This document shows positions 57,343-60,897 of a stretch of DNA of 64,000 bases, piece after piece. The DNA lies in assembly GCF_013401555.1 (NCBI RefSeq), contig NZ_CP058552.1:6076001-6140000 (forward strand). Reading direction: 5' to 3'. The DNA is from Paenibacillus sp. E222. GTDB lineage: Bacteria; Bacillota; Bacilli; Paenibacillales; Paenibacillaceae. The stretch's first letter is position 1. Each line of letters starts with the position of its first letter. Below the pieces are notes generated by a model. It made no database searches. It was not told the origin of the DNA and saw only the letters and a list, made by a program, of their open reading frames with translations. Made by a program: the position numbers and the translations under genes.

Positions 57343-58599
57343 ATGACAATGCAGAGCGAAGTTACGGGCTCAGGGCCGTTACAAACGGTACTTATGAGTA
57401 CCGGCGCTTTAATGCTGGTAATTGCAGTAGTTGTATCTCCAAAAGATGCATTTGATGCCTCTATTCAAGGTTTGGACATTTGGTGGAAAATCATCTTTCC
57501 GGCCATGCTTCCATTCCTGATGTTATCCCAAATGCTGACTGCGTTCGGCTTTACTCACGCGCTCGGTGTCTTGCTTGGGCCATTGATGCAGCGCTGGTTC
57601 CGTCTGCCGGGCAAAGCCGGACTGGCTATTGCTGTCGGCATGTGCGGCGGCTTTCCGGCTGGAGCAGATACCGCCTCCCGCCTAGTGCAGGATCAACAAA
57701 TTACCGCCAAACAGGCGGGCATTGTCGCTGCAGCATCTCATTTCGCCAATCCATTGATGATTATACTTGTCATTGGTGCAGCTTTTCTACACCAGCCTGT
57801 GGCCGGATATTTCCTTTTGATCGTTCACTGGGTTAGTGGCTGGATGGCCACCATGATCGGAGTACGACTCCTGCCCAAAGAATCAAAAGGGGAAAAACAA
57901 TCAACTGCAAACCCTTCTTCGTCCAAACGACAGAGCCTATGGTCCCAGATGATGCTTGCAGCCCGTGCAGCCCAGGAACGTGACGGACGCGGGTTCGGCA
58001 AATTGCTTGGTGACACCGTCTCCCAAGCTGTACAAACCTTAATGATGACGGGAGGATATATGATTGTGTTTGCCGTGTTTGTTCGGCTGCTCACCCTCTA
58101 TATCACCCCCGGTGCTTCAGTTGCTTTTTGGCCCTCCCTGCTGGAGCACCATCTGGGAACGTATCACCTGAGTCAGAGCCCATTAACGCCTGTTCTGCTC
58201 ATGTCTTTGCTTGCAGCCGTCCTCGGCTGGGGAGGTCTATGCTCTCATCTGCAAGTTTCCGCCGTGCTGAAAGCTGCGGGACTTGCCGCAACGTCCATGA
58301 TGTATTTTGCCGGAATCCGTCTGCTTCATGCATTGGTTGCAGTTTTCCTCAGTTTGCTGCTATGGCTGCCATTCAGCCGTTACAGCTCAGAAGTCTTGCC
58401 CACGTTTCAGACCAATCCAGGCAATGGTTGGGCACCATTCTTAACCAATCAATCTCTGGTAGGCATGAACACCTCCGACATTATCGAAGTCTTTTGGATT
58501 GGTTTCCCTGCTGCCTGTATCGGTCTGGCATTGCTGCTCACCGTCATGATCAGCCTGTCCGGGCTGACTTTCTGGTTTAACCGCCGGTTTTCTCGCTAA
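57343..58599 (+). CDS. ylbJ: Sporulation integral membrane protein YlbJ
   Basis: A 418-aa protein with about eight membrane segments, related to nucleoside-recognition (gate) domains of transporters ([17 protein letters not shown] and [20 protein letters not shown]). In B. subtilis YlbJ is made in the mother cell and is needed for spore cortex formation. Its presence supports an endospore-former. GAGGTGA precedes the ATG. Its 3' end overlaps that of coaD by 23 bp on the opposite strand. Confidence 0.93.
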
Positions 58600-59092
58600 T
58601 TTTCTGACGCAGCGCAGCTTCCACTTCAGGTGAGACCAGATCGGTGACATCTCCGTGGTAGTGGGCAATTTCCTTGACGATGCTGGAGCTCAGGTACGAA
58701 TATTTCGGATTGGTCATCATAAAAATGGTTTCCGCATCCGGATTTAACTTGCTGTTCGTCGAAGCCAGCTGAAGCTCATACTCAAAATCCGTCACCGAGC
58801 GGATACCGCGGACGATGACCTGAGCATCTTTTTGCCTTACATAATTTGCTGTCAGATCACGGAAGCTATCCACTTCCACATTAGGCAGGTAACTCGTGAC
58901 TTCTGAAATAAGACTTTTCCGTTCTTCCACCGTAAACAGTGGGTTTTTACTCATATTATTCAATACAGCCACGATGACGCGATCAAACTGCTTCGACGCG
59001 CGGGCAATAATGTCCAGATGGCCCATCGTTACGGGATCAAAACTCCCTGGATATACGGCAATTCGTTCCTGACGATGTATCATTTCACTCAT
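58577..59092 (-). CDS. coaD: Phosphopantetheine adenylyltransferase
   Basis: Penultimate step of coenzyme A synthesis. The nucleotidyltransferase motif is [23 protein letters not shown] (TxGH: TMGH), with [17 protein letters not shown] and [19 protein letters not shown], all family markers. The frame is open to 59275, but ATG 59092, with GAGGAGG at 6 nt, overlaps the rsmD stop by 8 bp and gives 171 aa; ATG 59083 is an alternative. Confidence 0.96.
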
Positions 59093-59696
59093 GAGGAGCC
59101 TCCTCTTCCGCTGTGCTAGGTTGTCCATCTTCTGTTGCTGCAGCAGGTGCATAATGATAGATGGATACAGCTGTCTCCCCATACAATGCCTTGCGCGTTT
59201 GTTCAAACGGGCCGAATTGCTCAGGGTAATTATATTTGGATTCATATTCAAGCACGATGGTCGCTTCCGGTTCAAGCAAGCCCAGCTCGTGCATCGTAAG
59301 CATTAACTCGTCCCCATTTTTCATACGGTAGGGCGGGTCCAGAAATACGAGATCAAATTGTGTGCTTCGCTTGGCGAGCGCCTTCAATGCACGACTGGCA
59401 TCATTCCGGTATATGGCCGCCTGATCTTCCAGCTTGGTTGCCTTCAGATTTGCACGAATCACTTCAATACTTTTCGATTCCAAGTCAACAAAAACAGCCT
59501 TGTCCATGCCGCGGCTCAGCGCCTCAATCCCGAGACCTCCACTGCCTGCAAACAGATCCAATGCTGTACCGCCCTCAAAATAAGGGCCAATCATACTAAA
59601 CAACGCTTCCTTCACCTTGTCGGTGGTCGGCCGCGTTCCTGTGCCAGGAACAGCCTTCAGCGGTCTGCCTTTCGCACTCCCAGATACCACTCTCAC
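59085..59696 (-). CDS. rsmD: 16S rRNA (guanine966-N2)-methyltransferase RsmD
   Basis: S-adenosylmethionine-dependent enzyme with [18 protein letters not shown] (cofactor loop) and the catalytic DPPYR. It starts [17 protein letters not shown] from GTG 59696, with AAGGTGA at 7 nt. 203 aa; the acidic C-terminal tail runs into coaD. rsmD-coaD is the conserved pair ylbH-ylbI. Confidence 0.95.
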
Positions 59697-59801
59697 TGAT
59701 GAGTCACCTTTTCTCTCTATGTAAGTTTATTGATAAAGCTATCGTACCACAATCGGGTTCAGTTTGAAAAATAGTCCGTCTGCTTTCTCGCCGAAATATT
59801 G

Positions 59802-59830
59802 TTGACGAATTGTTGACGCATATGTATAAA
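59802..59830 (+). promoter_or_regulatory. Promoter of the candidate small RNA
   Basis: Plus-strand TTGACG (59802-59807), exactly 17 bp, TATAAA (59825-59830); each hexamer is 5 of 6. No plus-strand gene follows, only a structured stretch ending in a terminator. Confidence 0.75.
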
Positions 59831-59836
59831 AAGGAA

Positions 59837-59978
59837 ACTTTCCGGCCATCCTGTAATTATCGACATCACAAGTGTCGTAGACAACCGCGGAGAAGACTTA
59901 CGTTTCCCCATAAGCTCTTCGTCCGGTTTCTCCTCTCCCATGAAAGATAGGCCCTCGAAAGAGGGCCTATTTTTGTTG
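59837..59978 (+). ncRNA. Candidate trans-acting small RNA with C-rich segments
   Basis: About 140 nt between a near-consensus promoter and an intrinsic terminator, without a reading frame of note. A first small hairpin is CGACA-TCACAAG-TGTCG at 59871-59887. A long stem pairs ACC..GGAGAAGA (starting at 59883) with TCTTC.TCC.GGT, and its tip CTTA/TAAG presents the loop CGTTTCCCCA. Then TTCTCCTCTCCC is unpaired before the terminator. C-rich loops of this kind (UUUCCCC, CUCCUCUCCC) pair with Shine-Dalgarno sequences in Firmicute small RNAs such as RsaE/RoxS and FsrA. The family identity is not known. Confidence 0.65.
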
Positions 59979-59979
59979 T
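59947..59979 (+). terminator. Terminator of the candidate small RNA
   Basis: ATAGGCCCTC-GAAA-GAGGGCCTAT, a perfect 10-bp stem with a stable tetraloop, then TTTTGTTGTT on the plus strand. On the minus strand only CTTTC follows, so the plus strand is favoured, though it may also stop the AraC-family transcript. Confidence 0.9.
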
Positions 59980-60009
59980 TGGAACGTTGGTTGCTGATCA
60001 TTTCCTGAA

Positions 60010-60897
60010 TCATTTAATATGATCTACTTTTTTACGAACTGGAATCCACACTTCAGTGATGAAATCTTGCTGCTGATCATCAACCCATTCATATTTCTCG
60101 ATACATGGTCCTTCCGCTTGTTCAAAACTCGTTGACGGAAACCACTCCGTGTAGATACGTTTCCAGATATTCATTATACTTAAATCAATTTCGACATCTT
60201 CAGTCATCGTCCCGCGACTGTCAAAGACCGCATAGATTTGACCAGGTACATGAAGAACGGTAAATCCATCAGGGACCTGAATACCATCTGGCACTTCTGC
60301 TCCCATTAAATAACGTTTTGAACCATCCTCATCAAAGTCAAAATGATAACCATACAGCAATGCGCCAGCATGTCTCCCTAAAAGCTTGTTAATCTGATCA
60401 TGAGTACCATCTTTCCAAATTTCCTCCACAAATACAGGTATCTCTTTGTACGCATCCTTATGGACGATAACACTTTTTCCACATACAGTAGAGCCTTTTT
60501 CCTCAACCATTCGATAATTCATCTCTGTTTCCCCTCTAACCTGAATTTGAAAGGAGATTCGAGGGAAAGCTTTAAGTTTCACATTCATTTTCTTGGCTTC
60601 AAGCGGTGTTACCCCGTGCATTCTTTGAAATGCTTTCGTAAAAGCCGCCGGGCTGTCATAACCGTACTTCAGCGCAGCATCAATGACTTTACAATTCGTT
60701 CCCACTAAATCCTGTGCCGCAAGCGTAAGCCTCCTATTTCTCACGTATTGGGTCACGGTAACACCAGTTACTGCATGAAACATTCGCTGAAAATGGTATT
60801 TCGAACTCATAGCTGCCTTAGCAATGTCCTCAATCTCAATCGGCAAGTGCAGATGTTGTTCCACGTAATCAATGGACTGGCCAAGCAGTTTAAACAT
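60010..60897 (-). CDS. AraC-family regulator with GyrI-like effector domain
   Basis: A 295-aa transcription factor. Two helix-turn-helix units occupy residues 1-105 (IEIEDIAKAAMSSKYHFQRMFHAVTG and KVIDAALKYGYDSPAAFTKAFQRMHGVTP, of which YGYDSPAAFTKAFQRMHG is diagnostic). The rest is a GyrI-like/SRPBCC-type ligand-binding domain, as in Rob and BmrR-like multidrug sensors (IPVFVEEIWKDGTHDQINKL; ending EVWIPVRKK). The ligand is unknown. It seems monocistronic. The start ATG 60897 has TCTGGAG close by; an alternative could exist. Confidence 0.9.
   Translation of the reverse strand: MFKLLGQSIDYVEQHLHLPIEIEDIAKAAMSSKYHFQRMFHAVTGVTVTQYVRNRRLTLAAQDLVGTNCKVIDAALKYGYDSPAAFTKAFQRMHGVTPLEAKKMNVKLKAFPRISFQIQVRGETEMNYRMVEEKGSTVCGKSVIVHKDAYKEIPVFVEEIWKDGTHDQINKLLGRHAGALLYGYHFDFDEDGSKRYLMGAEVPDGIQVPDGFTVLHVPGQIYAVFDSRGTMTEDVEIDLSIMNIWKRIYTEWFPSTSFEQAEGPCIEKYEWVDDQQQDFITEVWIPVRKKVDHIK

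Follow-up and report, generated by a model that had tools for sequence, protein, structure and literature searches.

What is the short transcription unit that lies on the plus strand of the Paenibacillus sp. E222 genome between rsmD and an AraC/GyrI-like gene, both on the minus strand, and when and on what would its RNA act? A reading made from the DNA letters only (hereafter the sequence-only reading) had proposed an independent, terminator-ended sRNA with C-rich regions in the style of RoxS and FsrA, expressed under the primary sigma factor, which it could not assign to a known family. We analysed the whole stretch of DNA that contains it, a window of 64,000 nucleotides (positions 6076001-6140000 of the 7.5-Mb genome), and compared the unit with its counterparts in other genomes. 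The best overall explanation, which we hold with high confidence, is that the unit is csfG, probably made in the forespore, and that its C-rich regions may block ribosome-binding sites.

The locus and the predicted RNA

The features of the locus, in window coordinates, are the following:
57343-58599, plus: ylbJ-like sporulation membrane protein gene (TIGR02871, 212 bits, below the cut-off of 305)
58577-59083, minus: coaD, behind rsmD, with its start inferred from the likely first Met (TIGR01510, 206 bits, cut-off 103)
59085-59696, minus: rsmD (ylbH), 16S rRNA methyltransferase gene, divergent from the sRNA (TIGR00095, 185 bits, cut-off 117.5)
59802-59830, plus: sigma-A-like TTGACG (59802-59807)-N17-TATAAA (59825-59830), overlapping the GTATA -35 element
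59824-59855, plus: putative sigma-F/sigma-G-type promoter (sequence pattern), GTATA at 59824-59828, 15 nt and GGCCATCCTGTA at 59844-59855
59861-59877, plus: 5' hairpin of the sRNA, CGACAU/GUGUCG, close to the predicted transcript start (predicted fold)
59885-59926, plus: main hairpin, CCGCGGAGAAGACUUA...UAAGCUCUUCGUCCGG (predicted fold and kept pairing)
59903-59909, plus: C-rich region 1, UUUCCCC, in the apical loop of the main hairpin
59927-59939, plus: C-rich region 2, UUUCUCCUCUCCC, the most conserved segment
59947-59974, plus: intrinsic terminator, a perfect 10-bp stem (59947-59956/59961-59970) with a GAAA loop and a T run at 59970-59974
59885-59979, minus: match to the Rfam family RF00516, 'ylbH leader', on the strand opposite to the sRNA (covariance model)
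60010-60897, minus: gene of an AraC-type regulator with a GyrI-like domain, convergent (PF12833, PF06445)

The TTGACG-N17-TATAAA hexamers, the GNRA-capped 10-bp terminator with its T run and the apical loop showing UUUCCCC are all present as the sequence-only reading had described them. Its unpaired segment before the terminator is indeed mostly unpaired, although the first letters (UUUCU) may join the stem in the predicted fold. The unit contains three C-rich regions (UUUCCCC, CUCUUC.UCC and the segment at 59927-59939). The predicted RNA folds more stably than its dinucleotide shuffles, with z-scores of -4.5 for 59837-59979 and -6.2 for 59859-59975 and none of 200 shuffles as good in either case, the terminator contributing to both values. 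The product would be an sRNA of about 115-120 nt, composed of the 5' hairpin, the hairpin that shows UUUCCCC, the largely unpaired C-rich region 2 and the terminator.

Identification of the unit as csfG

The Rfam covariance search, proposed by the sequence-only reading, gave RF00516 at 59885-59979 on the minus strand (75.1 bits, gathering threshold 50, E 9.1e-16), the only gathering-level Rfam match in the whole window; the opposite strand of this family is CsfG. The match ends at 59885, so that the 5' hairpin is excluded from it. RF00516 reportedly corresponds to a motif published by Barrick in 2004, and CsfG is said to have been named by Marchais in 2011. A chance combination of promoter and terminator was ruled out by the score of the match (E 9e-16) and by the presence of the unit in 57 of 59 genomes.

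In B. subtilis, CsfG is described as an RNA under sigma-F and sigma-G control, made in the forespore and bearing C-rich regions (excerpts of PMC8216469), three in number according to the relevant passage of PMC4409812. Our own reading is that UUUCCCC, CUCUUC.UCC and the region at 59927-59939 are those three published regions. The unit of the window shares with B. subtilis CsfG (S547) the family model, the C-rich regions, the adjacency to rsmD, divergent transcription, a forespore-type promoter and occurrence in spore formers. Since it adjoins rsmD in the same manner, shares the C-rich motifs and has its own terminator, we identify the plus-strand unit, with near certainty as to the family, as csfG of a Paenibacillus; the proposal of an independent terminator-ended sRNA with RoxS/FsrA-style C-rich regions is thereby borne out.

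The far neighbour is different, being an AraC-type gene here and ylbG in B. subtilis. In a B. velezensis record, whose gene table lists no RNA genes, we found the order ylbJ-coaD-rsmD, the RF00516 match and ylbG, and the window repeats this order with a ylbJ-like gene, coaD and rsmD, beyond which the sRNA is followed by the AraC-type gene and not by ylbG. Of 195 loci examined, five have a relative of the AraC-type neighbour close to the sRNA. The ylbG neighbour describes the B. subtilis locus and is no defining trait of the CsfG RNA. Many Bacillus-like csfG loci also have an extra hairpin, whereas here the terminator lies directly 3' of C-rich region 2.

The literature, in the passages available, groups CsfG with RoxS and FsrA because of the C-rich regions (PMC8216469, PMC4409812). 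RoxS/RsaE is likewise a Firmicute sRNA whose C-rich regions pair with ribosome-binding sites, but it is distinguished by the ResDE regulator and by known targets (PMC4409812, in part); FsrA, which also has C-rich regions in predicted single strands, is instead a Fur-controlled iron-sparing RNA. We rejected membership of either family, as there was no Rfam match: RsaE gave none in the window and none at E up to 5 over 59500-60300, and FsrA gave none at E up to 5 over the same interval among the Rfam models searched.

Conservation and maintained pairing

A lack of conservation in close relatives had been named by the sequence-only reading as a ground for refutation, and RF00516 was in fact found at E <= 0.001 in 57 of 59 genomes (the genome of the window itself and others of its genus and order), 55 of them above the cut-off. 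Four genomes (G161, G182, G218 and G239) each gave two matches; the second match of G218 has no C-rich core and was taken as chance, and the stretches examined in the other three hold one good copy each.

For the order we aligned 31 loci, drawn from the 54 of 57 with an exact core after removal of near-identical ones. The segment from ACAACCGCGG to CTCTCCC is almost invariant, and the 5' hairpin and the terminator vary in sequence. Covariation counts are weak in this nearest set because 11 of the 14 pairs of the main stem are constant (paired cells make up 97.3%, vs 96.6% in shuffles). Covarying stem pairs, which the sequence-only reading had proposed to look for, did appear at greater distance. 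A model built from 41 diverse sequences gave 69 matches in 78 sources, and in the resulting alignment 94.5% of cells pair vs 83.7% in shuffles (0 of 500 shuffles equal it), two-sided changes occur in 17 of 20 pairs and no slid structure exceeds 49.6% pairing; the model itself served to fit this alignment, the weakest rows of which (e.g., L157 at E 0.23, L272 and L261) may be chance matches or wrecked copies. Pairing is maintained in the 5' hairpin (helix 1) while its sequence varies, and in the main hairpin (helix 2), with two-sided changes in distant relatives; the terminator hairpin varies in sequence among species and is constant in position.

The C-rich regions behave differently from the stems: the comparison reveals that the stem is replaceable and that certain letters are fixed, foremost those of C-rich region 2. 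Region 2 is exact in 157 of 157 non-redundant loci, which were partly chosen by its first letters, and UUUCCCC is conserved across Bacilli and mostly kept in other classes (it is absent in G297 and G173).

Putative mechanism and targets

The C-rich regions may pair with the purine-rich ribosome-binding sites of forespore mRNAs and block their translation, the hairpin being a possible presentation device for the pyrimidine-rich sequence UUUCCCCAUAAGCUCUUCnUCCGGUUUCUCCUCUCCC. The C-rich region of RoxS is described as blocking ppnKB translation (PMC4409812, in part), and by analogy we lean, by a small measure, towards mRNA base-pairing as the mechanism of CsfG. Papers of 2021 and 2022 speak, in their passages on CsfG, of an RNA for which no mRNA target has been identified (PMC8216469, PMC9147052); a 2025 paper words it, in the sentence concerned, as regulating sporulation, germination and competence mRNAs, citing the 2011 CsfG paper (PMC12456014).

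In its own genome, 16 other sites match the complement of GGGAGAGGAGAAA (region 2) with at most one mismatch, vs nine for the reversed pattern, and at six of these candidate sites (L213, L215, L220, L223, L224 and L227) a start codon follows after 1-9 nt. The ORFs at these sites, of at least 50 aa, were called mechanically, and that of L213 is TipAS-like by eye. The loop complement has 56 sites, including csfG itself, vs 46 for the control. Predicted binding of the core below -15 kcal/mol was obtained for 58% of translation starts and 27% of coding windows (225). Nevertheless, when 40 shuffled versions of the core and 40 of region 2 were compared over 130 of the 225 starts, 7 and 8 of them, respectively, bound at least equally well. 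Since shuffled cores bind almost equally, Shine-Dalgarno affinity alone does not explain the invariance, and anti-Shine-Dalgarno mimicry found little support as its cause, the binding being hardly better than that of composition shuffles. We also rejected a universal RNA partner such as rRNA, as the own genome contains no second perfect complement of region 2.

The near-equal pairing of shuffled cores with translation starts also fits a reading in which the C-rich segment binds a protein, either Hfq or some other RNA-binding protein of the forespore, and serves as a sponge instead of pairing with mRNAs, as does the constancy of region 2 in most copies while the stems vary. CsfG of B. subtilis is reported, in the passage at hand, to be enriched with Hfq on co-precipitation and to be modestly less abundant in its absence (PMC3574147). 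An mRNA-pairing sRNA would bind Hfq too, however, so that this observation also suits base-pairing, and we regard the protein-site reading as unlikely while taking it seriously. To our knowledge, no protein is known for the C-rich motif of CsfG, which also speaks against it.

Promoter and transcript start

Of 157 non-redundant loci, 151 have the element GTATA at 73-90 nt 5' of UUUCCCC, where shuffles would give 4.9%; it is followed after 14-16 nt by a G in 151 of 151 and, after 12-26 nt, by CAT or CAA in just 100 of 151. In the window, it takes the form GTATA-N15-GGCCATCCT (GGCCAT type) at 59824-59852, and the pattern GTATA-N15-GGNNATNNT occurs a single time in the 64 kb, against 0.04 expected. 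We take the layout GTATA-N15-GGCCAT to be that of the sigma-F/sigma-G -35/-10 type; the literature search gave no match to a sigma-F/sigma-G promoter consensus. SASP genes were considered as a yardstick for SigG and then set aside: in the upstream regions of two of five such genes the -35 pattern was not found, and CATAATA is present in one of the two (L207).

The conserved promoter, judged by its pattern, is of sigma-F/sigma-G type, from which it follows that CsfG is probably made in the developing spore, and expression of the unit under forespore control is highly likely in this species too. Since the conserved promoter is the GTATA type, the 5' end probably lies near 59858-59862 and not at 59837, where the sequence-only reading had placed it.

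That reading had also assigned the unit to the primary sigma factor. In the corresponding rival explanation, the sRNA would come mainly from the sigma-A-like TTGACG-N17-TATAAA in growing cells. The hexamers are there, and TTGAC occurs at such a spacing in 14 of 54 relatives, all of them among the 19 close relatives listed, to be set against GTATA in 151 of 157 loci. The -35 element is, however, absent or changed in the near relatives L014, L023, L031, L036 and L043, matches of at least 5/6 are found in 13 of the 151 non-redundant GTATA loci, and the best sigma-A-like scores in 46 loci are 8.3 vs 7.8 in shuffles, while the sigma-F/G-type element is retained throughout. Primary-sigma expression is thus mostly unsupported, and we consider it improbable as the main source of the RNA; an extra sigma-A (vegetative) promoter in the close clade is possible. 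A simple promoter scan omits the TTGACG/TATAAA pair because it demands T as the sixth -10 base.

We also observed that TTGTTGACG is repeated at 59800-59819, upstream of the -35 element, in close relatives only, one copy being lost or mutated in several of them. This repeat could be an operator or a sigma-A -35 element.

The transcribed strand

In Rfam, RF00516 bears the label of a cis-regulatory leader, and its strand is not the one from which the CsfG transcript was detected experimentally. The element of the window is the same; Rfam takes the other strand and the cis-leader label. It would accordingly be a minus-strand cis leader, or an orphan riboswitch, of rsmD (ylbH), and in papers of 2013 and 2015, in the parts seen, it figures among the cis elements or leaders, assigned to ylbH (PMC3766115, PMC4342826 and, likewise, PMC4634765). 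We examined 195 neighbourhoods, 16 of 211 loci being excluded from the strand and promoter set, as their core pattern was either missing or too close to an end. Within 600 nt of rsmD, the sRNA is divergent from it in 179 of the 195, a position that would also suit a leader, and is on the same strand in five (L022, L063-L065 and L088); in three (L123, L128 and L156) the distance is 1.1-1.8 kb, seven have no rsmD in the available piece, and L161 was read at the wrong site. When the conserved part is folded as a whole, the plus strand is the more stable one in just 35 of 158 loci, which is in favour of a leader, and for the 5' hairpin it is so in 121 of 158; these two counts include the misread L161, and later ones use the 157 loci without it.

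Nevertheless, the loci flipped relative to rsmD indicate that the sRNA is no leader of this gene, and those lying 1.1-1.8 kb away also argue against it. At its start, the RF00516 consensus has a run of A and then a G+C hairpin, which is a terminator in reverse, and in relatives the plus strand of the unit is bounded by a promoter of forespore type on one side and a terminator on the other. In B. subtilis, the northern analysis, as reported in the passage concerned, gave a signal solely from the strand opposite to the ylbH leader, and the sRNA was named CsfG (PMC3574147). The leader is therefore largely refuted and, in our judgement, very improbable, and the comparison gives grounds to turn RF00516 to the other strand in Rfam.

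A small protein gene on either strand, for which one could invoke the open frames of 46 aa (plus) and 84 aa (minus) that overlap the unit, is highly improbable and was rejected, as nearly every letter is invariant with no codon-position pattern and, in the conserved part of 82 nt, each of the six reading frames is interrupted by stop codons in between 25 and 157 of the 157 loci.

Co-occurrence with sporulation

The genome of the window has SpoIVA and SigG. Among 250 genomes of the class, RF00516 was found at E <= 0.001 in 157 (131 above the cut-off) and SpoIVA in 179; 156 genomes have both, 23 have SpoIVA only, one has RF00516 only and 70 have neither. The one match among the 71 genomes without SpoIVA, in G275, is weak (E 2e-4). 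A genome of the same family as that of the window (G103; 5.6 Mb, 100% complete) is without SpoIVA and without a SigG-level match (best 134 bits, cut-off 457), and CsfG is absent from it both by the model and by the core pattern at up to three mismatches, with nothing similar in the region upstream of rsmD.

In the opposite direction, CsfG was not detected by the searches of G045 and G052, which have SpoIVA, nor in any of the 14 SpoIVA-positive genomes sampled from one family, f13 (e.g., G084, G117, G209 and G230). This family accounts for 14 of the 23 SpoIVA-only genomes, and 13 of its 14 genomes have a divergent SpoIVA (E 1e-141 to 1e-168); a lineage loss of CsfG is possible. We searched 16 genomes for rsmD and inspected its upstream region in 14, the other two having weak rsmD matches. 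A diverged CsfG was seen in five (G173, G068, G297, G180 and, weakly, G073), and none in the remaining nine, including all five f13 genomes inspected and the non-sporulators G103 and G275. As far as seen, CsfG is associated with sporulation but dispensable for it, because some sporulators apparently lack it.

The pyrimidine-rich core beyond Bacilli

In diverged copies, the stem is altered or rebuilt and the C-rich pieces persist. Thus, G180 has GAGG-UUUCCCCAU-CCUC followed by GGUUUCUCCUCUCCC, and G297 and G173 have lost UUUCCCC and kept GGUUUCUCCUCUCCC. Region 2 itself is shortened in L056 and changed in G073 and L272.

A search of the phylum with the model gave matches in 47 of 398 genomes and in 35 of the 382 outside class Bacilli; its filters were strict, and most sporulators outside the class gave no match. 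SpoIVA is present in 46 of the 47 matched genomes, for a baseline of 336 of 398, the exception (G373) being 72% complete. We examined 18 of the 35 loci outside the class: rsmD was found in 16 and coaD in 14, and 17 give RF00516 matches, none of at least 50 bits. Their consensus is UUUCCCCAUAAGCUCUUCCUCCGGUUUCUCCUCUCCC, the last 13 letters of which served as the anchor. Four loci (L311, L313, L318 and L324) have almost no stem in the 68-nt piece (-0.7 to -2.0 kcal/mol), and two (L314 and L315) have a strong stem of different sequence (-22 to -24 kcal/mol). These are likely CsfG orthologs in other classes of the phylum, and target searches can accordingly seek one partner common to all classes. 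Because the C-rich pieces persist while the stem differs or vanishes, the ordered pyrimidine-rich sequence of about 37 nt presented above as the one held by the hairpin appears, in the loci compared, to outlive it and to be the most invariant part of CsfG.

We tentatively raise the possibility that CsfG, as a forespore RNA, arose before the class Bacilli and that its function resides in this fixed sequence, not in the hairpin. If so, the sequence and its adjacency to rsmD would predate the split of Bacilli from other classes of the phylum, and the stem would be a lineage-specific holder, absent from some lineages. The core would then act on an equally invariant forespore partner, either the Shine-Dalgarno signal or one conserved partner, and CsfG might, for instance, silence translation broadly as the spore goes dormant; the core would also be constant enough to be used as an attachment site by temperate phages, as tRNA genes are. 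The literature search returned neither the core of about 37 nt outside Bacilli nor a link with phages, and the 2011 CsfG paper is known to us through papers citing it.

Viral contigs and a plasmid record

No convincing match was found among 17 phage records (best E about 2). Three contigs of viral collections carry TTCnTCCGGTTTCTCCTCTCCC (L325, L326 and L327); a match in a further contig (L328) lies inside a long ORF and was taken as chance. In two contigs from IMG/VR, the CsfG 3' core stands behind an integrase gene: in L326 (1365-1650), it follows by 90 nt a full-length tyrosine integrase gene (417 aa, PF00589), and in L325 (5938-6060) an ORF with only the integrase C-terminal part (138 aa). 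In both, the core lies within a stem whose two sides co-differ (AAUAUCAAGGC/GCCUUGAUAUU and AAAUCAAGGC/GCCUUGAUUU) and is flanked by arm-like GCGCACAAAA repeats, 242 nt apart in each. By its layout, this region looks like a phage attachment site, so that csfG may be the bacterial target; the other reading is that these phages bear a CsfG-like RNA of their own. The third contig (L327:1-70) starts inside a csfG resembling those of the order of the window, with a weakly amidase-like gene near that end (AmpD model, 34 bits, cut-off 143), and this start might be a prophage end at csfG.

Finally, an 807-kb B. velezensis 'plasmid' (L329, NZ_CP083716.1, 380243-386297) carries a chromosome-type ylbJ-coaD-rsmD-csfG-ylbG locus, and this record may represent chromosomal DNA deposited under a plasmid label.
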